Assembly: GCA_021646405.1 (NCBI GenBank)
Contig: SOER01000033.1
Location: 1 to 38,723 of the forward strand
Length of the DNA: 38,723 nt
Source of the DNA: Candidatus Loosdrechtia aerotolerans
GTDB lineage: Bacteria > Planctomycetota > Brocadiia > Brocadiales > Brocadiaceae
Direction of reading: 5' to 3'
Shown: one piece after another, positions 12,326-29,113 of the stretch
Numbering within the stretch: the stretch's first letter is position 1
Layout: every line of letters starts with the position of its first letter
Made by a program: the position numbers and the translations under genes
Notes under the pieces: generated by a model
Database searches by the model: none
Seen by the model: only the letters and a program-made list of their open reading frames with translations
What the model was told of the DNA's origin: nothing

Positions 12326-13498
12326 TTATTGTTTTACATCCTGATAATATTCACTGAGTATACTTGCCACTTCTGGTCTTGTAAAGGTAGGAGGCGGTGC
12401 TTGTCCTGTACTCAACATCCTGCGAACTTCTGTTCCGCTAAGGATTGCGTGATTTGCTGAATCATGAGGACATGTCTTGTAAGAGGCCATACCATTACAT
12501 GCGTTACAGTAAAATGTATGGTCAAAGAATAGCGGTGTGATTCCTATTTCGTGAGGATCAAATTCATCAAAAATGTAATGTGCATCAAACGTTCCATAAA
12601 AATTACCGACACCGGCATGATCCCTGCCTACAATAAAATGAGTACAGCCGTAGTTTTTTCTCACGATGGCGTGGAAGATTGCTTCTCTCGGACCTGCATA
12701 TCGCATTGCAGCAGGGAAAACTGCTAACATCGCCCTGTCTTTCGGATAGTATTTCTCGAGAAGAACTTCATAACTCCTGATTCTCACAGGTGCTGGAACA
12801 TCATCGCTTTTTGTCTCTCCCACTAACGGGTGTAAGAGGATTGCATCTACTACCTCTAAGGCGCATTTCTGGATATATTCGTGGGCGCGATGGACAGGGT
12901 TCCGGGTCTGAAATCCAACAATCCGTTTCCATCCTTTTTTTGCAAACGCCTCTCTTGTTTCGGCAGGGTCTAACCGATATGTCAAAAAATCACCCGGTTT
13001 TGTCCTGTTGACAACGCTTACTTTGCCTCCCAGAAGATAATCCCCCATTTTATAAACGTACTCTACACCGGGATGCTTTCTGTCATCGACACCATAAATC
13101 TCCAGCGATTCTTTTTGTTTATTATGATGATATATTTCTTCGAGGTGTAAAATTGCAATTACCTCATTGGCCTGATCTACGAGTGCTACATCTTTACCAG
13201 GTGTAAGGCCTTCAACCTCTTCCTTCGTAGCAGAGAGAGTAACGGGAATTGACCATGGCAGACCATGAGACAATCTCATATTATCCACCACGTTATCATA
13301 GTCTGCTTTACCCATAAAACCCTCTAAAGGACTCATTGCCCCAACAGCAATCATATCAAGATCAGACATTTCACGAGGACTCAGCTGGATTTTTTTCATA
13401 TCATAATGAGTAGCCTTATCAAGCAGTAGTTCGCGCTCCTCCATGGATACGATTTTATTTATCAGTTTCCCTCCGTGAGGAGCTATATTTTTAACCAT
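12326..13498 (-). CDS. sat: Sulfate adenylyltransferase (ATP sulfurylase), dissimilatory-type homo-oligomer
   Basis: This enzyme interconverts sulfate plus ATP with adenosine-5'-phosphosulfate (APS) and pyrophosphate. The 390 residues show QTRNPVHRAH (197-206) and GRDHAGVG (291-298), the two nucleotide-binding motifs, plus MRYAGPREA. A C-terminal zinc-type cluster CNACNGMASYKTCPH (Cys331, Cys334, Cys343) is found in the Sat type of sulfate reducers and thermophiles. There is no APS-kinase domain. It is the last gene of an aprA-aprB-sat operon: its AAAGGAG ribosome site overlaps the aprB stop. Together with AprBA it can activate sulfate and reduce APS to sulfite, or run in reverse to make ATP from sulfite oxidation. 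No dsr genes are nearby to show which. Confidence 0.95.
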   Translation of the reverse strand: MVKNIAPHGGKLINKIVSMEERELLLDKATHYDMKKIQLSPREMSDLDMIAVGAMSPLEGFMGKADYDNVVDNMRLSHGLPWSIPVTLSATKEEVEGLTPGKDVALVDQANEVIAILHLEEIYHHNKQKESLEIYGVDDRKHPGVEYVYKMGDYLLGGKVSVVNRTKPGDFLTYRLDPAETREAFAKKGWKRIVGFQTRNPVHRAHEYIQKCALEVVDAILLHPLVGETKSDDVPAPVRIRSYEVLLEKYYPKDRAMLAVFPAAMRYAGPREAIFHAIVRKNYGCTHFIVGRDHAGVGNFYGTFDAHYIFDEFDPHEIGITPLFFDHTFYCNACNGMASYKTCPHDSANHAILSGTEVRRMLSTGQAPPPTFTRPEVASILSEYYQDVKQ

Positions 13499-13504
13499 TT
13501 TTTA

Positions 13505-13834
13505 TCAATCTCCTTTCACATGTTTTGCTTGAATAACAAATTCTTCCTGATGCCCCCTGGCATCCCAGACAGTCCAGATTGTCTTATCACGTTTTAATCG
13601 TACTTTCAGCGAAGCACCATTACTACCAATTTGAAAAGGGAGCCTTAACTCAATCGCCTGAACAGGACATTCCTTTACACAGCATGCGCAAGTCCAGCAG
13701 GCAGATTGGTCACGGATTGCCGCTTTCATACTCTCTTTACGGTAACACAGGTTTCCTGGACAAATACGCTCGCAGCGTCCCTCAGGCAATCCTTTACATC
13801 CGTTACAGACGTTTTCATCAATAAAGATACTCAT
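13505..13834 (-). CDS. aprB: Adenylylsulfate reductase beta-type subunit (two 4Fe-4S clusters), short form
   Basis: This 109-residue iron-sulfur protein has two cysteine sets. The first is Cys10, Cys13, Cys21 and Cys25 (ENVCNGC, RICP), and the second is Cys46, Cys49, Cys52 and Cys56 (CWTCACCVKECP). Together they match the two 4Fe-4S clusters that pass electrons to the FAD of AprA. A C-terminal beta region follows (LKVRLKRDKTIWTVWDARG). Canonical AprB of sulfate reducers has about 150 residues with a tail that wraps AprA; that tail is missing here. This short form is known next to AprA-like proteins in some non-sulfate-respiring anaerobes. The ATG lies one base past the aprA stop, and sat follows. 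The electron donor is unknown; no QmoABC genes are present. Confidence 0.85.
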   Translation of the reverse strand: MSIFIDENVCNGCKGLPEGRCERICPGNLCYRKESMKAAIRDQSACWTCACCVKECPVQAIELRLPFQIGSNGASLKVRLKRDKTIWTVWDARGHQEEFVIQAKHVKGD

Positions 13835-13835
13835 A

Positions 13836-15509
13836 TCAGCATAAAGGTCTTTCTATCATTTTTATCTCATCGGTATGGATATTATAGAGAGAATTCACAA
13901 ATACCAGCCATCTCTTATCATCCCTGTTAGGATAATCTAATCGGGTTTGATAACATGCCCACCGTGTCTCCTTTCGGTAAATCAGATGTTCTACCAATAC
14001 CCTGGCTACATCGATCCTGTCAATACACTCTAAAGCTTCAACAAGGGTATAATTATCTTCTGCTGCAATATCCCGTACGTGTTCTTGTAAGCCTTTGAGT
14101 AATCGCCTTGCCTCTAATAACCGCTCTTCATGAAGTGCATAATTCATGGAAATACCACCTGCACATTCGTCCATGATCTTTTGAAGACGTTCTCTCACTT
14201 CCACTGGTGATAACCCAAATTTCTTTGTTAAAGGGGACAAGACTCGAGTCTTCTCTTTCTGTATGAATTCATGATCTACGTCCTCGAGGCAATTTCCCTT
14301 CACATCCTCTAAGGCTGTTGCAGCAGCGATACGCGCCTCAACCCAACTCCCGCTTACATATTTCTTTGGTGCACCGCCAGCAACCTCTCCTGCTGCATAA
14401 AGGCCCGGTACGGTTGTCCTCCTTCCTTTATCTATCCAATAGCCTGCCTGACAATGACCTCCAACAATGAACGGCTCTGTTCCCTGTATCTCCACGGGTC
14501 TTCTCCTGGGATTCATATCATCACTTGCCCATAATAAAACAACTTGAGGGTTCATATTGAGAAAGGCCTCTTTTAACTTTCTTTCTTGCGCTTCATCTAA
14601 GGTTGTTGTATCCAAAAAGCACGGTCCCCGCCCAGCTTTTGTTTCTTCTACAGTAGCTAAGAGCCTGTGGTGTGTTAAACACCTGTTTCCGCCCAGGTGT
14701 TTATAATAGAGCGCTAAATAATCTTCGCCCAGGGCATTAATCTGCTTTGCGTATGCACCAACAGCAATAGTGCCCGTCGGGGCATGTACATCTTTTACAC
14801 GCAGTGCGATAAACCGATTCTCGAAGCTGGTCATTTCAGCACCAATTCGTATTCCCATAGCATATCCTGTTCCAGCGTTCCACGGACAATACCATGTAAG
14901 GTGACGTGCCTCACCCGTGTTATTCGGCCTGTAGATCCCGGAGGCTCCTCCGGTAGCTACGATAACAGCTTTTGCCCGCACAACATAGAACATACCGTCT
15001 CTTATTCCATATCCAAATGCGCCACAAACATGCTTGCCATTATAAATAAAATTTGTCGCCACAACACGATTCAATACGCGGGCAGGGGTCTTTCGCACAG
15101 CTCCTGCAAGAATAGGCTTTAGCCGTTCACCAAGGATACGTATACTGCGTTTCCCTTTCCTTTTATATGTACCATCTTCATTCTTCTCAATGGGAAGCCC
15201 CATCTCTTCAACATCTCTAACAACTTCATTCAGACCCTGTGCAATATCATATACGAGATCTTTTCTTATAATCCCTTCAAACTGCCGTTCTATGTATGAC
15301 ACATGTATATCAGGAGTCTGACCCGGATTCAGATAGGCGTTGATGGCATTTAATCCCATCGCCAGGCATCCGCTCCGCTCAATATGTGCCTTCTCCATAA
15401 TGACAACCCTGCAATTGGGAGACCGTTTGTAAATTTCTACAGCAGCAAAACACCCCGCTGCCCCACCACCAATAATCAGTATGTCAGTATCTATATACAC
15501 AACACTCAT
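13836..15509 (-). CDS. aprA: Adenylylsulfate reductase alpha-type flavoprotein
   Basis: This 557-residue protein belongs to the succinate dehydrogenase/fumarate reductase flavoprotein superfamily. The FAD-binding GGGAAG lies at residues 14-19, with MEKAHIERSGCLAMGLNAIN following as in AprA. FAD contacts include VIVATGGASGIYRPNNTGEA and GLYAAGEVAGGAPKKYVSGSW. The RPNNTGEA and WASDDMNPRRRP stretches are AprA-like rather than SdhA-like. It reduces APS to sulfite and AMP, or oxidises sulfite in reverse, with AprB as electron partner. It is shorter than the roughly 620-660 residues of sulfate-reducer AprA, in line with the short AprB. It is first in the aprA-aprB-sat operon. No strong ribosome site precedes the ATG, and the upstream 486 bases contain only an AT-rich inverted repeat. 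Confidence 0.88.
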   Translation of the reverse strand: MSVVYIDTDILIIGGGAAGCFAAVEIYKRSPNCRVVIMEKAHIERSGCLAMGLNAINAYLNPGQTPDIHVSYIERQFEGIIRKDLVYDIAQGLNEVVRDVEEMGLPIEKNEDGTYKRKGKRSIRILGERLKPILAGAVRKTPARVLNRVVATNFIYNGKHVCGAFGYGIRDGMFYVVRAKAVIVATGGASGIYRPNNTGEARHLTWYCPWNAGTGYAMGIRIGAEMTSFENRFIALRVKDVHAPTGTIAVGAYAKQINALGEDYLALYYKHLGGNRCLTHHRLLATVEETKAGRGPCFLDTTTLDEAQERKLKEAFLNMNPQVVLLWASDDMNPRRRPVEIQGTEPFIVGGHCQAGYWIDKGRRTTVPGLYAAGEVAGGAPKKYVSGSWVEARIAAATALEDVKGNCLEDVDHEFIQKEKTRVLSPLTKKFGLSPVEVRERLQKIMDECAGGISMNYALHEERLLEARRLLKGLQEHVRDIAAEDNYTLVEALECIDRIDVARVLVEHLIYRKETRWACYQTRLDYPNRDDKRWLVFVNSLYNIHTDEIKMIERPLC

Positions 15510-22958: not shown

Positions 22959-23903
22959 TTATGTTAATGGGACTGGTCTGGGATATAATCGTGCTCGTTG
23001 AACGATTTCAGGAACGGCCTCTTCCCATTCGACTGCCATGATATGAACACCGGCTACGCCTTTGATTTCTCTTACCTGTTCTATTACCTCGAGGCAGATT
23101 TTCATGCCCTCCTCTTTTCCCTTCTTTGCAGCAGAGGCAGCTGTCATACGGTTCATTACCTCATCGGGCACGTCCATGCCGGGCACATTATATTTCATAT
23201 GTTTGGCCATACCTGCAGACTTGAGTGGAGCTACACCTGCAAGGATAAACACCTTTTCGTGAAGACCCATACCGGTAACCATCTTCATCCACTCTTTAAA
23301 TTTAGCCACATTGTAAATAATTTGTGTTTGAATGAAGTCAGCTCCTGCAGCAATCTTCTTGGCAAGCCTTATAGCCCGGAATTTAAAGGGGTCTGCAAAG
23401 GGGTTTTCCGCAGCACCAATAAAAAATTGTGGTTCAGATACTTTTAATTCCTGGCCGGACTGAAACTTCTTTTCGTCACGAAGGGTTTTCACTATTTGAA
23501 TAAGCTGTACTGAATCTACATCAAAAACACCTTTTGCCATAGGATGATCTCCGAATTTCTGATGATCACCGGTAAGGCACAGAAGGTTTTTTAACCCCAG
23601 TGCAGCAGCTCCCAAAAGGTCGCTCTGGATAGCAATGCGGTTTCTGTCGCGGCACGTCATTTGAATAATCGGCTCTAATCCGGCATCCATAACGATACGG
23701 CCAGAGGCAATGCTGGACATACGCACCACTGCTGTCTGGCAATCGGTGATGTTGAAGGCGTCCCCATAACCTTTCAATATTCCAGCCTTTTTTTCTATTA
23801 CAGAGCGGTCGGCACCTCGAGGTGGACCCAATTCCGCTGTAACGGCAAATTGTCCGCTCTGGAGAAGTTTTTCTAGATTACTACCTGATTTTATATTAGT
23901 CAT
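22959..23903 (-). CDS. metF: 5,10-methylenetetrahydrofolate reductase
   Basis: This 314-residue TIM-barrel flavoenzyme reduces methylene-THF to methyl-THF. Visible features are the N-terminal FAVTAELGPPRGAD (active-site Glu region), NITDCQTAVVRMSS, IIQMTCRDRNRIAIQSDLLG, LCLTGDH (FMN/FAD-side motif), IGAAENPFADPF, the GADFIQTQIIYN substrate segment and VFILAGVAPLKSAGMAKHM. The length and wording match the MetF that works with MetV in acetogens rather than the E. coli NADH-dependent enzyme. The ATG overlaps the upstream metV stop (ATGA), giving tight translational coupling. It is the last gene of a three-gene operon whose first gene is a large flavin/FeS protein (24674-26746). It would serve the methyl branch of the reductive acetyl-CoA pathway or methionine supply. 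Confidence 0.95.
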   Translation of the reverse strand: MTNIKSGSNLEKLLQSGQFAVTAELGPPRGADRSVIEKKAGILKGYGDAFNITDCQTAVVRMSSIASGRIVMDAGLEPIIQMTCRDRNRIAIQSDLLGAAALGLKNLLCLTGDHQKFGDHPMAKGVFDVDSVQLIQIVKTLRDEKKFQSGQELKVSEPQFFIGAAENPFADPFKFRAIRLAKKIAAGADFIQTQIIYNVAKFKEWMKMVTGMGLHEKVFILAGVAPLKSAGMAKHMKYNVPGMDVPDEVMNRMTAASAAKKGKEEGMKICLEVIEQVREIKGVAGVHIMAVEWEEAVPEIVQRARLYPRPVPLT

Positions 23904-24577
23904 TGTTTTTTCATAACCAGATGTTCAAGTACCATCTTTCGCGGGTGGTTTTCCGCACCGGTAGTCCAGTCCTTGGGTGGAACAATCGTTTCCATTGTTT
24001 TTAAAAGTTGCTGGGTATCCAACTGATCATAGATCTGATTCCATACACAGGGGGTTTCCTGTGATACCTCACACCTTCCATTTTGAGAACCGCCGCATGG
24101 TCCGTTCATAAGACTTTTTGCGCACCGGCTTACCGGACATAATCCTCCCGTAGTCCCCAGGATACAATTACCACAGCCCGAGCATCGCTCCCAAAAAATC
24201 CCCTGTTCAGCAGGGCCACCCATAAAGGTGGTGTTTAACCCGGGGAAGATCCTTATATGGGGAAACCTTTCGGCCAGGTATTGTACGCCAACACCACAGG
24301 CAATGGAGAGAACGGCATCGCAGTCCTTAATAATATCTTCAATGGCATCAATAAATTCCCATTCACATTGCCGGAGTGTTGAATTCTCTGCAATTTCTAA
24401 ATGTTTACCCTCTTGTTTGGCAGAAAGCCGAAGTTGTGCAGCAAGCTCTGTGACCTGCTTTTCACCACCGGTATGGCATATCGTTACACACGAACCACAG
24501 CCGAGCACACAGACCTTTTTACATCCAGAAAGCATCTGCTTAATTTCTTGAAATGGTTTTGATGCAGCTACAATCAT
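23900..24577 (-). CDS. metV: MetV: zinc/iron-sulfur partner of methylene-THF reductase
   Basis: This 225-residue protein of the MTHFR C-terminal (methylene-THF reductase zinc-binding) type is very Cys-rich. An N-terminal set (VCVLGCGSCVTICHTGG, QCEW) precedes a middle Rossmann-like part (DAVLSIACGVGVQYL). A C-terminal cluster domain has CSGCGNCILGTTGGLCPVSR, then CAKSLMNGPCGGSQNGRCEV and the PCVWNQIY motif. In Moorella and related acetogens MetV forms a complex with MetF and carries the electron input from HdrABC-MvhD. Here it overlaps metF by four bases and follows, after 96 bases, a single protein that fuses the equivalent electron-input domains. Metal content cannot be read from sequence: both 4Fe-4S and zinc sites are plausible. 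Confidence 0.9.
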   Translation of the reverse strand: MIVAASKPFQEIKQMLSGCKKVCVLGCGSCVTICHTGGEKQVTELAAQLRLSAKQEGKHLEIAENSTLRQCEWEFIDAIEDIIKDCDAVLSIACGVGVQYLAERFPHIRIFPGLNTTFMGGPAEQGIFWERCSGCGNCILGTTGGLCPVSRCAKSLMNGPCGGSQNGRCEVSQETPCVWNQIYDQLDTQQLLKTMETIVPPKDWTTGAENHPRKMVLEHLVMKKQ

Positions 24578-24673
24578 GATAATAATCCACCACGAAATTT
24601 ATGGATATGTTCAAATAGTTTAAGCAACTTTATAGTTTTTGCTACGTTTAATCCAAACTATCATCCAATTATA

Positions 24674-26746
24674 TTATATATGTCTTAATTCTTCGACCAT
24701 TTTACCGGCAAGGTCAATAGTCTCTTTATCATTCTGTGAAGAAACAAAGTGGGTTTGAAACCGCCTGATATCCATCCCCAAATCGTTAAGAAGTTGTGTT
24801 GTAAACCTTGCCCGTTTTTCAACCCACTCCTGCTCCTTGCAGAAATGACAGGTATTGTCCTTACAGGCAGTTACCAGCACTCCATGGGCGCCTAATTCAA
24901 AGGCCCTCATATATAATACCGGATCTACCTTTCCGAGTCCCAACACACCAACACGCCTGGTATGAGAAGCGAGGAGATCGTTTCCCGTATCAATTATATC
25001 CCCGTTGTATGCGCCATATTGACAATAAAAATTGATAATGAGCGGTTTTACACCCTGAATAGATACGTCTTGAAAAACAGCTTCAAGGGCATCTTTACCT
25101 CGATCCTCTAAAGGGGTTTTAAAGCTAATAGCCTTCGCAGGGCACTCTACAACACATAAGCCACATGATTGGCAATCACCATCAATATAAGCTGTGGTAT
25201 TTCCCTTCTTGATTTTTGGTACCTCAAATGGACATATTCTCACACAGGTAAGACATCCCACACAGAAGTTGTTATCTACGACAGCACCAGCGCCGCAGTT
25301 CATACATCTCTGCGCTTCTTTAACAGCCGCACTGAGAGGAAAACCGAGTTCTACCTCATCAAAATTATGTAACCTTTTATCTGAAGGCATACCAGGCATC
25401 TCTTGCTTCTGTTCCTTCTTGATAAAAGTGACTCTTGACGAAGCAAGATCAGGTACAACGGGTTTGTCATTCCATTTCTCATCTTTTATAGCCGCATTTC
25501 TTAAGGCATTATGGATAGCAATCGCCGCCTTCTTACCCTGCGCCATACCTTCGGTCATGGTTCCGCGACCCAGGACAATATCACCTCCTGCATACACACC
25601 GGGTACAGAAGTACTGAAGGTATGCGGATTAACAATAAGAGTACCACCCCGTGTAATTTGAATACCTTCTTGTCCTTTTAAAAACGCAAGGTTCGACGTC
25701 TGTCCTATAGCAAGGATAATCGTATCGGCCCCTATAACAGATTCCGACCCCTCATAAAACGCAGGGTTGAATCGCCTCTGTTCATCAAAGACATGCTTTA
25801 CTTTCAGTACCTCCAGACCCGTTACCTGTCCATCGTTTCCGAGGATGCGTTTCGGCCCTACAGAATTATATAACACTACTCCTTCATGGAGGGCCTCTTC
25901 AATCTCAAAATCGGTTGTCGGCATTTCTTTTCGGGATTCAAGGCAAGCAACAGATACCTTATCTGGCTTCAGACGCAGGGCTGTTCGTGCACAATCCATT
26001 GCAACAGCACCTCCACCGATTACCAGTACGTTCTTTCCGATCCTAGCGTATCCTGTCCTGTTTACCTCATGCAAAAACGATATACCTTTCAGAACCCCCC
26101 CGAGATGTATCCCTTCGATATTTAAGGTACGACTCTCCAATAATCCTACTGCAATGAAAACAACGGCGTATCCATCTTTTTTCAAACTATCAAAGGTAAC
26201 GTCGGTACCAAGGGTTGCATTATATCTAATCTCAACCCCTAATTTTTTAATGAATTCAACCTCCTTATCAAGGTGTACTCTCGGTAACCGGTACGCCGGT
26301 ACCCCCATGCGGAGCATTCCGCCAGGTGTTGGATTAGATTCAAAGATGGTACATGAATATCCTAAAAGGGTAAGGTCATTAGCAGCGGCAAGTCCTGCAG
26401 GACCTGCACCGATGATAGCGATCCTTTCCGGATGTTTTTCGGTAGTAAATTTTATGATCTGTTCTGAAAAGTTATCCCCGAGAAAACGTTTCAGCCATGC
26501 AATTGCAACCGGCGCATCAATACCGTTTCGCCGGCATTTTGTCTCACAGGGATGGGTACAAATACGACCGCAGGATGATGGAAACGGATTTCGTGATCTT
26601 ACAAGTTGAAAGGCCTCATGAAAGCGTTCTCTAGCAATAAGCTGGACATAATCGCGGGCATCCTGCCGGATAGGACAGGCCATGATGCATGGTGCTTCCT
26701 CGTTTATTCGTTTATCAAACCCTGTACATCTTTTTTCTCGTACCAT
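24674..26746 (-). CDS. Flavin/iron-sulfur electron-input fusion: GltD-like NAD(P)H module, two 4Fe-4S clusters and MvhD domain
   Basis: The protein has 690 residues. An N-terminal helical Fe-S domain (Cys20, Cys24, Cys59, Cys63, Cys67, Cys71) precedes a GltD-like flavoprotein with two dinucleotide folds: IIGAGPAGLAAA (FAD, 111-122) and VIGGGAVAMDCARTA (NAD(P)H, 242-256), with GVYAGGD closing the FAD site. After a linker and a CMNCGAG pair (481-487), a two-cluster ferredoxin segment follows (Cys495/498/501/505 and Cys525/528/531/535). The last 125 residues resemble MvhD/FlpD, the delta subunit of F420-non-reducing hydrogenase and partner of HdrA (INFYCQYGAY, Cys575; VTACKDNTCHFC, Cys628/633/636). 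Directly upstream of metV-metF, it is probably their electron donor, replacing separate HdrABC-MvhD subunits. Whether it bifurcates electrons is unknown: the HdrB/HdrC active-site domains are absent. Confidence 0.88.
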   Translation of the reverse strand: MVREKRCTGFDKRINEEAPCIMACPIRQDARDYVQLIARERFHEAFQLVRSRNPFPSSCGRICTHPCETKCRRNGIDAPVAIAWLKRFLGDNFSEQIIKFTTEKHPERIAIIGAGPAGLAAANDLTLLGYSCTIFESNPTPGGMLRMGVPAYRLPRVHLDKEVEFIKKLGVEIRYNATLGTDVTFDSLKKDGYAVVFIAVGLLESRTLNIEGIHLGGVLKGISFLHEVNRTGYARIGKNVLVIGGGAVAMDCARTALRLKPDKVSVACLESRKEMPTTDFEIEEALHEGVVLYNSVGPKRILGNDGQVTGLEVLKVKHVFDEQRRFNPAFYEGSESVIGADTIILAIGQTSNLAFLKGQEGIQITRGGTLIVNPHTFSTSVPGVYAGGDIVLGRGTMTEGMAQGKKAAIAIHNALRNAAIKDEKWNDKPVVPDLASSRVTFIKKEQKQEMPGMPSDKRLHNFDEVELGFPLSAAVKEAQRCMNCGAGAVVDNNFCVGCLTCVRICPFEVPKIKKGNTTAYIDGDCQSCGLCVVECPAKAISFKTPLEDRGKDALEAVFQDVSIQGVKPLIINFYCQYGAYNGDIIDTGNDLLASHTRRVGVLGLGKVDPVLYMRAFELGAHGVLVTACKDNTCHFCKEQEWVEKRARFTTQLLNDLGMDIRRFQTHFVSSQNDKETIDLAGKMVEELRHI

Positions 26747-26806: not shown

Positions 26807-27220
26807 TTATTCCCCCATTGCTTTTATAATAAGCTTTTTACTGCGCTGACCATCAAATTCAGCGTAAAACACCTGCTGCCATGGTCCAAGGTCTAATTTC
26901 TCATCTGTCACAGGCACAATTACCTGATGTCCAATAAGAAGGTTCCTGAGATGTGCATCTCCATTTACCTCTCCTGTTCTGTGATGATAGTAATCATGAC
27001 CTTCCGGAATCAACTTCAAAAGCCATTCTTCGATATCCCGATGAAGCCCGGGTTCGGCATCATTAATGAAAACTCCTGATGTGATATGCATGGCAGAAAC
27101 CAGGACCATACCTTCCCGAATACCGCTCTTTTCAAGCACCCTGATTACATCTCTGGTAATATTAATGAATTCACGGCGTTTTTTTGTATGAAAGGTCATG
27201 TAGTCTGTAAGAAATTTCAT
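26807..27220 (-). CDS. YjbQ family protein (secondary thiamine-phosphate synthase-like)
   Basis: This 137-residue protein of the UPF0047/YjbQ family is a small compact enzyme fold that forms trimers. Conserved features are [20 protein letters not shown], the [19 protein letters not shown] core with several His residues, [10 protein letters not shown] and [17 protein letters not shown]. coli YjbQ shows a weak thiamine-phosphate synthase activity, but the true cellular role is unsettled. The frame opens at a GTG (27235) with a short Ser/Asn extension. The internal ATG gives the usual family N-terminus ([15 protein letters not shown]). A promoter lies about 65-95 bases upstream (27286-27314). 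It precedes the MetVF operon by 60 bases on the same strand and may read into it. Confidence 0.88.
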
Positions 27221-27285
27221 AGAGGAATTACTCACTAAATTGTAATGAATAGCTCATGGATTTTAAAGAGGCCTATAAACGTCTT

Positions 27286-27314
27286 AATTTAATGGTTAAA
27301 GTAAGGATTGTCAA
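27286..27314 (-). promoter_or_regulatory. Promoter of the YjbQ gene (and possibly the MetVF operon)
   Basis: On the minus strand a consensus TTGACA (27314-27309), a 17-base spacer and TAAATT (27291-27286) precede the YjbQ gene, giving a leader of about 60 bases. No terminator is visible between yjbQ and the flavoprotein gene 60 bases downstream, so readthrough into the MetVF operon is plausible. Confidence 0.5.
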
Positions 27315-27365
27315 GAAAAATGACCGCTTTCCTGCAAGATTTAACGGTATTGAATTGAGAAAAAA

Positions 27366-28973
27366 TTATTCTTTTATTATAATATGTCTTCTCCAGTGTC
27401 TATTATCCGTTTGTGGATAATCAGTACGGTGATGAACACCGCGCGATTCTTTTCGTTTTTGAGCAGAAGATACGATAAGTTTTGAAACCAGGAGCATATT
27501 CTGAAGTTCCCATCCGGCTGGTACAGAGAATTCTTTATCCATAACATAACTACACCACATCTCGATCATTTCCCCTGCTTCGAGGAGGTGTCTCTCATCC
27601 CGTTCGATCCCTGCATCTCTCCACATAAGACTCTTGAGGGAGTTTCCAATATCGTTAAGATTTAACCAGCTTATTTTTGATAAACCTAAAGACTCATTGA
27701 CGGCGTAAGGTAAGAATTCATGTTTCTTCCTGTGTATTGATTTACCGGCATCTGTTCCTGCTCTATACCCTGTCACCAGTCCTTCAAGGAGGGAATTGCT
27801 TCCAAGACGATTAGCCCCATGCATACCCGTACAAGCCACCTCACCACACGCATAAAGCTGTTTGATCGTAGTTCTGGCGAAACGATTCACCTTGATTCCA
27901 CCGATCATATAATGAGCACTGGGCCGGACAGGAATAAGATCCCTGGCAATATCAATTCCGAAAGAAGCACAGATTTCATTGATCTTAGGGAAGCGCGCAT
28001 AGAGCCGTTCTTTTGGAATATGACGGACATCGATATATACATTGGTATGATCGGTTTTCTGGATTTCCCGTAAAATGCTCTGACTTACTACATCTCTTGG
28101 TGCAAGCTCCGCGCGGGGGTGGTATTCCGGCATAAATCGTTCGCCTTTTCTGTTTCGTAATATCCCTCCCTCTCCCCGCACAGTTTCTGAGATAAGGAAT
28201 CTTGCCGCCCCTGCGATATACAGTGTCGTGGGGTGAAATTGAATAAATTCCATATCCTGTATCGTGGCACCCGCCCGATATGCCATTGCCACTCCGTCTC
28301 CGGTAGCAACACCCGGATTTGTCGTCTCCCGGTAAACCTGGCCGCATCCTCCTGTAGCCAGGATTGTACGTTTTGCCCAGATCAACATGCATCCCTTTTG
28401 TGCATGCCAGGCAACCGCACCGTGACAAAAGGTATCTTTTGTAATGAGATCAACCGTAAACGTATGCTCAAGGATTTTTATATTCTTATTCCCTTTTACG
28501 ACGCGTATAAGGGTATGTTCAACCTCTCTCCCCGTAGAATCACCCTGAGCACGTATGATCCGGGAAAAACAGTGCCCACCCTCCTGCGTAAAAATCAACT
28601 GATTGCCTTCCATATCGAATTGTGCACCGTGCTGAATGAGATCTTTTATGCGCTTCGGCCCTTCGCTAATAATAGTCCTTACTGCAGCAGTGTCACTCAA
28701 ACCCTGACCTGCTACCAAGGTATCTTTTACATGTTTCGCAACGGAGTCTTTCGCAGAAAGTACCCCTGCAATACCTCCCTGTGCATAGGCAGTATTACTC
28801 TCATCAATGGTATCTTTCGTAATGACAAGTACTGAACAGTGCTTTGCAGCCTGGATAGCAGCATTAAGACCTGCAACTCCGCTCCCGATTACGAGTACGT
28901 CAGTAAAGACATGCGAGGTGGTATGGCTATCAAAGGAGATGAGATAGCGTTTTGGTCGTATGTGTTTTTTCAT
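27366..28973 (-). CDS. nadB: L-aspartate oxidase
   Basis: This flavoenzyme oxidises L-aspartate to iminoaspartate, the first step of de novo NAD synthesis. In anaerobes fumarate rather than oxygen takes the electrons. From the ATG at 28973 it has 535 residues, the family length. Motifs are DVLVIGSGVAGLNAAIQAA (FAD fold near the N-terminus), SNTAYAQGGIAGVLS, EGGHCFSRIIRAQGDSTG, TILATGGCGQVYRETTNP, EFIQFHPTTLYI, LISETVRGEGGILRN, SAHYMIGGIKVN and the C-terminal FAD motif HGANRLGSNSLLEGL. QGG, ETVRGEGG and HGANRLGSNSL separate it from fumarate reductase. A longer frame from a GTG at 29096 adds 41 residues but no family resemblance. It is divergent from the uxs gene. With nadC at 7966-8877, two of the three quinolinate-route genes are in this window. 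Confidence 0.95.
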   Translation of the reverse strand: MKKHIRPKRYLISFDSHTTSHVFTDVLVIGSGVAGLNAAIQAAKHCSVLVITKDTIDESNTAYAQGGIAGVLSAKDSVAKHVKDTLVAGQGLSDTAAVRTIISEGPKRIKDLIQHGAQFDMEGNQLIFTQEGGHCFSRIIRAQGDSTGREVEHTLIRVVKGNKNIKILEHTFTVDLITKDTFCHGAVAWHAQKGCMLIWAKRTILATGGCGQVYRETTNPGVATGDGVAMAYRAGATIQDMEFIQFHPTTLYIAGAARFLISETVRGEGGILRNRKGERFMPEYHPRAELAPRDVVSQSILREIQKTDHTNVYIDVRHIPKERLYARFPKINEICASFGIDIARDLIPVRPSAHYMIGGIKVNRFARTTIKQLYACGEVACTGMHGANRLGSNSLLEGLVTGYRAGTDAGKSIHRKKHEFLPYAVNESLGLSKISWLNLNDIGNSLKSLMWRDAGIERDERHLLEAGEMIEMWCSYVMDKEFSVPAGWELQNMLLVSKLIVSSAQKRKESRGVHHRTDYPQTDNRHWRRHIIIKE

Positions 28974-29083
28974 GTAAAAGCAATTGTATCCATAAAACCG
29001 GTATTTGTCAAAAATTTCAGATAAAAAGCGAGAAGCCGGTAAGGCCCCGTTAAAAGATTTCAGTTTTATTATCAATAAAAATA

Positions 29084-29113
29084 TTGTAGAATTCACCGCA
29101 ATTGCTCTATAAT
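29084..29113 (+). promoter_or_regulatory. Promoter of the UDP-glucuronate decarboxylase gene
   Basis: TTGTAG (29084-29089), an 18-base spacer and a perfect TATAAT (29108-29113) lie 40 bases before the ATG. A second TATAAT at 29116-29121 lacks a -35. The region is shared with the divergent nadB gene. Confidence 0.5.

Follow-up and report, generated by a model that had tools for sequence, protein, structure and literature searches.

A GltD-ferredoxin-MvhD fusion protein encoded beside metV and metF in an anammox bacterium, a predicted NADH-oxidising arm of methylene-tetrahydrofolate reductase

In the anammox bacterium Candidatus Loosdrechtia aerotolerans (Brocadiaceae; GenBank assembly GCA_021646405.1, genome of 3.26 Mb, assembly completeness 99.4%) a 690-residue protein, which joins a GltD-type flavoprotein, a ferredoxin domain and an MvhD domain in one chain, is encoded ahead of metV and metF on contig SOER01000033.1, positions 1 to 38,723 of which were analyzed (the window). 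The fusion protein, MetV and MetF probably make up an NADH-dependent, non-bifurcating, three-subunit methylene-tetrahydrofolate (methylene-THF) reductase of the acetyl-CoA pathway; acetyl-CoA synthase is also encoded in this genome. The functional link between the fusion and MetVF and the use of NADH are well supported; a physical complex, the electron path, strict specificity for NADH and the absence of bifurcation are inferred.

Four types of methylene-THF reductase (MTHFR), I to IV, are recognized (PMC8760232) and were restated in April 2026 (PMC13040438). The energy balance of the acetyl-CoA pathway depends on the electron donor used to reduce methylene-THF, and anammox bacteria remove a large share of fixed nitrogen. 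If the proposal is right, the fusion with MetVF would be a fifth type, near-universal in anammox bacteria and scattered in several mostly uncultured lineages, and would fix the donor for this step.

The fusion gene and its linkage to metVF

The original prediction, made from the sequence of the window, was of a 690-residue GltD/[4Fe-4S]/MvhD fusion ahead of metV and metF, and this was confirmed by open reading frames (ORFs) and Pfam (Table 1). Pfam matches in all three products exceed the curated cut-offs, and metF (PF02219) adjoining metV (PF12225/DUF5981) is the core of a MetVF-type MTHFR. The ATGA overlap of metV and metF stands as predicted, but metV does not follow the fusion directly, the two genes being separated by 96 bp; no terminator-like site was found in this gap by a promoter and terminator scan, whose counts stay near those of shuffles.

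Table 1. Features of the fusion-metV-metF locus (positions in the window; residues numbered in the fusion protein)
Feature	Residues	Positions	Strand	Basis
Fusion (GltD-ferredoxin-MvhD), proposed NADH-oxidising electron-input subunit	690 aa	24674..26746	(-)	Pfam, HdrA2 match and structure model
Fer4_20, GltD N-terminal [4Fe-4S] domain	16-96	26459..26701	(-)	Pfam
Pyr_redox_2, FAD and NAD(P)H Rossmann domains	108-403	25538..26425	(-)	Pfam; model match to Nfn/Stn GltD-type subunits
CLE in place of NADP(H)-binding YRR	268-270	25937..25945	(-)	Alignment; PMC7596348
CMNC site, C481 and C484	481-484	25295..25306	(-)	Invariant in 62/62 fusions
Two-[4Fe-4S] ferredoxin domain (Fer4 489-509; Fer4_9 495-540)	489-540	25127..25282	(-)	Pfam; relative of HdrA C-terminal ferredoxin domain
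MvhD/FlpD domain	570-689	24680..25039	(-)	Pfam FlpD; C575, C628, C633 kept, G578 replaces fourth cysteine
metV, Fe-S partner of MetF	225 aa	23900..24577	(-)	DUF5981 (PF12225)
metF, methylene-THF reductase catalytic subunit	314 aa	22959..23903	(-)	MTHFR (PF02219)

Within the anammox order the fusion was found in 52 of 59 genomes (one of the 52 being cut by a contig end), and most of the genomes without it are incomplete. The usual Brocadiaceae gene order is nadB, yjbQ, fusion, metV, metF, and the three genes also stand together in families f2 and f3 of the order. A wider scan of 84,980 species genomes gave the best 80 loci, which were picked by similarity, so that the linkage share among them is not an unbiased rate; metV and/or metF adjoin 59 of the 61 full-length fusions from named genomes, the genes often overlapping or nearly touching. 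The two unlinked fusions are from Ca. Anammoxibacter, whose genomes still carry one metV elsewhere. Fusions linked to metVF span Planctomycetota, Chloroflexota, Actinomycetota, Desulfobacterota-type Deltaproteobacteria, Spirochaetota, Armatimonadota and others. With the same domain order recurring beside metVF across the anammox order and several phyla, chance is excluded, and the proposal that the fusion is a condensed electron-input arm for MetVF, lacking HdrB and HdrC, is supported by this linkage and by the absence of HdrA and of any other FlpD from the genome of the window.

Two loci vary the theme. At L074 the fusion lies within a carbon monoxide dehydrogenase/acetyl-CoA synthase (CODH/ACS) operon, in the order CODH, acsB, acsC, fusion, metV, metF and an acsE-like gene, and at L067 the chain is split into a 563-residue GltD-ferredoxin protein and a 134-residue MvhD, again preceding metV and metF. 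Type IV enzymes, with the composition HdrCBA-MvhD-MetVF, are known from Moorella thermoacetica and Sporomusa ovata; type IV loci usually have a gene for an MvhD-like protein immediately before metV, the place that the MvhD domain takes in the fusion loci.

Two phyla were sampled. In Planctomycetota 43 of 294 sampled genomes carry metV and 23 have a strong fusion match. In an even sample of the phylum of locus L096, a deltaproteobacterial lineage, metV is present in 209 of 297 genomes and a strong fusion match in 8, five of which adjoin metVF; the fusion is thus a minority form there, and the 30 metV loci closest to Moorella metV mostly carry MvhD and HdrA instead. In sulfate-reducer-like genomes (L085, L089, L093) a free GltD-type protein is encoded between HdrA/MvhD genes and metV, the same parts being unfused. 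One Chloroflexi genome (G333) holds two different fusion-metV-metF sets (L064 and L123).

Domains, clusters and structure model

Two 4Fe-4S clusters had been predicted, but the fusion probably holds four, with one pair in the ferredoxin domain and another in the N-terminal domain of the GltD part. Conservation of cysteines and nucleotide motifs was scored over 62 fusions. Both [4Fe-4S] sites of the ferredoxin domain are fully conserved, and C20, C24, C63, C67 and C71 of the GltD part are kept (one row is truncated there). The usual N-terminal CxxC of GltD proteins is absent from the fusions; the C481/C484 pair may supply these missing ligands and so complete the distal GltD cluster. The same CxxC site is present in NfnA of NfnABC, and RCxxCG follows the GltD domain in the fusion, in NfnA and in StnC of StnABC. 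In the MvhD domain C575, C628 and C633 are kept almost throughout.

Residues 487-689 of the fusion align with the C-terminal 200 positions of HdrA2 (NCBIfam, 2e-35). By this alignment the ferredoxin domain and MvhD are the tail of HdrA-MvhD fusions, here set on a GltD body and not on the TrxR-like flavin module of HdrA. A confident structure model built from 43 sequences (predicted local distance difference test score, pLDDT, 88.7; predicted template modeling score, pTM, 0.88) replaced an earlier, poor model from 19 sequences (pLDDT 68). Among solved structures, those closest to it are the NfnABC and StnABC subunits of GltD type, with Z of 38-42 over up to residues 13-554; these matches speak for the fold and the shared GltD-ferredoxin arrangement, not for function.

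Relation to HdrA and the Moorella-type complex

The original prediction contrasted the fusion with a separate HdrA in the Moorella complex. This contrast has to be refined, since Moorella HdrA itself contains a GltD insert (PMC9430772), which makes the fusion a trimmed relative of the known complex. When Moorella HdrA (1,487 residues) was compared with the whole genome of the window, the fusion was the top match, over the GltD insert (162-632, 46% identity) and the last ferredoxin domain (1412-1475, 48%). In the genome this query matched nothing beyond its GltD part and ferredoxin segments, and the TrxR-like regions of HdrA, which hold the bifurcating flavin, found no match. By sequence, then, the fusion is the counterpart of the Moorella GltD insert (the NADH entry) and last ferredoxin domain, joined to MvhD and free of the bifurcating-flavin modules of HdrA and of HdrBC.

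The remaining parts of type IV were likewise missing. The genome has no second FlpD domain, the only one being the C-terminus of the fusion, and no separate MvhD subunit. The pair of HdrB and HdrC was not found; a single CCG protein (435 residues, Fer4_8-CCG-CCG layout) is encoded on another contig among unrelated genes. With no HdrA, no other FlpD and one CCG protein, a Moorella-type complex cannot be made by this organism, within the completeness of the assembly.

A tree of GltD domains places the Moorella insert within the main group at a modest support of 92, and f2-type and some other fusions fall apart from that group. Many forks are unresolved, and neither the monophyly of the fusions nor their order of origin is settled by this tree.

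Nucleotide donor and proposed electron path

The motif YRR binds the phosphate of NADP(H) in NfnB, and kinetic data for DsrL proteins associate this motif with the use of NADP(H), and its loss with the use of NAD(H) (PMC7596348). YRR is found in all five closest PDB chains, and the protein of the window has CLE at this site. LE occupies 269-270 in 58 of the 62 fusions, the other four having YRR. CLES stands at this site in the GltD insert of Moorella HdrA, which has been reported to be the NADH-oxidising subunit (PMC8760232). From these motifs NADH is predicted as the donor of anammox fusions and NADPH as that of most of family f2.

The following path is proposed. The fusion would be the point of electron entry, where hydride from NADH would pass to the FAD of the GltD domain; single electrons would then run along both pairs of [4Fe-4S] clusters, first that of GltD and then that of the ferredoxin domain, to the C-terminal MvhD domain. 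This domain would dock on MetV, the Fe-S partner of MetF, and pass electrons onward to MetF, the flavin of which would reduce methylene-THF. A docking role of MvhD is supported by the pull-down of MetF with S. ovata MvhD (PMC9430772) and by the position next to MetV that the fusion shares with type IV. With E0' of about -320 mV for NADH (PMC6295475) and about -200 mV for methylene-THF (PMC9430772), the transfer would release about 23 kJ/mol; bifurcation would therefore be unnecessary, plain transfer would suffice, and ferredoxin would be spared.

Points against the mechanism and rival explanations

Several observations weigh against this mechanism, beginning with the exceptions to gene linkage. 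In the Scalindua family the fusion adjoins metF and metV lies elsewhere, in Anammoxibacter both genes are apart from the fusion, and in the even sample of the L096 phylum three of the eight fusions have no metVF within 1.5 kb. One finding that would have told against the prediction, a fusion mostly encoded away from metVF, is nevertheless the reverse of what the 59 linked loci show. Fusions apart from metVF, two of which lie beside methyltransferase-type genes (L124, L125), fit a separate NAD(P)H oxidoreductase that is merely co-operonic with metVF. We consider this very unlikely given the linkage over several phyla, and no other consistent partner gene was seen at the fusion loci. The genes near the two stand-alone fusions, which were named by eye, are trimethylamine-type methyltransferase-like and corrinoid-activating-protein-like.

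The MvhD-like domain that had been predicted is there as a FlpD match, but one of the four cysteines present in MvhDs of known structure is absent from it. The fourth position (G578 in the protein of the window) is taken by cysteine in just three fusions, all of Anaerolineales type (L063, L064, L068), which, unlike the Brocadiales fusions, hold all four (FxCRYC ... GC...GEC). An extra cysteine lies in the MvhD part, C636 in Brocadiaceae and a few residues later in Scalindua and Anammoxibacter, and this may or may not replace the absent one. As the Brocadiales domain is without a canonical cluster cysteine, the final electron relay ahead of MetV may be changed or absent. The same degenerate site argues against a confurcating quinol/NADH enzyme, the MvhD end of which would take electrons from a membrane component, a role that has been suggested for S. 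ovata MvhD, with NADH as co-donor, and the HdrA flavin proposed for confurcation is missing from the genome. Confurcation of menaquinol and NADH has been proposed for type IV, and 75% of S. ovata MvhD was in the membrane fraction (PMC9430772, PMC13040438); for the fusion we find it most improbable.

The second nucleotide motif of the fusion is GGGxxA, a form linked to NADP by some authors (PMC7483475, PMC12054007), which is a weak counter-sign to NADH use. By that rule NADPH could be the donor along the same electron path, and the scaffold can take NADPH, judging by YRR in place of CLE in most f2-family fusions and in one unrelated fusion, L070 (loci L025, L026, L027, L058, L059, L061 and L070). 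These sequences are grouped apart in the GltD tree, a pattern that would fit either a change of donor to NADPH or replacement of the GltD part. Since the protein of the window has CLE where the phosphate would bind, and LE prevails among the fusions as in the NADH-oxidising HdrA of Moorella, we judge an NADPH donor for this protein quite unlikely.

GltD-type FAD is the bifurcating flavin of NfnAB, and the fusion model resembles Nfn/Stn subunits. Electrons of NADH could accordingly be split at the GltD FAD, one branch running by MvhD, MetV and MetF to methylene-THF and the other leaving by the ferredoxin domain for a low-potential carrier, such as ferredoxin, that would serve CODH/ACS and pyruvate synthase. 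Type IV enzymes have been proposed to bifurcate or confurcate (PMC9430772, PMC13040438), and ferredoxin-dependent CO2-fixing enzymes are used by anammox bacteria (PMC8027424). However, the genome lacks the HdrA modules in which the known bifurcating flavin resides, the fusion has a single flavin site, and no gene for a second NAD(P)-binding partner lies nearby. NfnA and StnC sit in complexes with further flavin subunits, the genes of which are not beside the fusion, and for DsrL, whose GltD-ferredoxin make-up is similar, the published role is that of a plain NAD(P)H:acceptor oxidoreductase (PMC7596348). Bifurcation at this FAD thus appears rather unlikely to us. It is also unlikely that the protein serves a minimal bifurcating methylene-THF reductase, in which one 690-residue chain would pass NADH electrons to methylene-THF and ferredoxin and provide low-potential electrons for anammox CODH/ACS without HdrA. 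Plain transfer from NADH to MetVF is the probable reading and the one we prefer, its case being built on sequence and a single-chain model.

Comparison with known systems

The fusion with MetVF seems to supply methylene-THF reductase with electrons in a fifth way that has not been described so far, its architecture being in none of types I-IV. With type IV it has in common MetV, MetF, the MvhD module just upstream of metV, GltD and C-terminal ferredoxin domains related to those of Moorella HdrA, and the CLES nucleotide motif of Moorella. It differs from type IV in that HdrB, HdrC and the TrxR-type flavin modules of HdrA are lacking and GltD, ferredoxin and MvhD form one chain. Type III (RnfC2-MetVF, Acetobacterium woodii) is alike in having three proteins with an NADH-oxidising Fe-S flavoprotein (here predicted) that feeds MetVF, but RnfC2 is not derived from GltD, HdrA or MvhD, and no RnfC is encoded among the neighbors of the fusion. 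The MetVF core is also common to type II (Eubacterium callanderi, Thermoanaerobacter kivui, Clostridium ljungdahlii), whose enzymes lack a further subunit and take electrons from reduced ferredoxin in vitro (PMC8760232), whereas here a fusion gene is linked. Since it would work like type III, is built from parts of type IV and belongs to neither, the fusion-MetVF set is best seen as a distinct variant within MetVF-type MTHFR.

DsrL, the NAD(P)H oxidoreductase of DsrAB, shares the GltD body, the linker and the two-[4Fe-4S] ferredoxin domain, and is described as serving its partner enzyme as a plain donor or acceptor (PMC7596348). However, it ends with the ferredoxin domain, has no FlpD and is partnered with sulfite reductase, while the fusion continues into FlpD. 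The bifurcating transhydrogenase subunits NfnA (NfnABC) and StnC (StnABC) share the GltD-type fold of an NADP(H)-binding subunit, but have YRR where the fusion has CLE, are 950-1,180 residues long, lack FlpD and work with further subunits; no NfnB/C, StnA/B or NfnS partner flavin genes were found among the annotated neighbors in the window.

Papers on Actinobacteria and Chloroflexi describe Moorella-like clusters and not the fusion chain (PMC7325909, PMC5736913), and a GltD-ferredoxin-MvhD fusion with MetVF was not described in the literature searched, preprints and most subscription papers lying outside its coverage. The puzzling type IV complex would gain a trimmed natural counterpart, with the same kind of NADH entry and MvhD but without the HdrA bifurcating flavin and HdrBC, and a comparison of the two would directly test what HdrABC contributes.

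Other observations

Long frames that suggested further fusions were rejected. A single-chain fusion-MetV in genome G316 (922-residue open frame) proved to be separate ORFs, the long frame being an upstream extension or an overlap in another frame, and the same was found for MvhD-MetV fusions suggested by long MetV frames.

The metVF locus includes fusion, yjbQ, nadB and folC as neighbors. The genes yjbQ and nadB (26807-29096, (-)) lie upstream of the fusion and are kept throughout Brocadiaceae, with no evident tie to folate chemistry. Elsewhere in the window, at 12326-15509 (-), sat (ATP sulfurylase, 390 residues), an aprB-like gene for a ferredoxin-like protein (109 residues) and the gene for a 557-residue adenylyl-sulfate reductase alpha-like flavoprotein are clustered.

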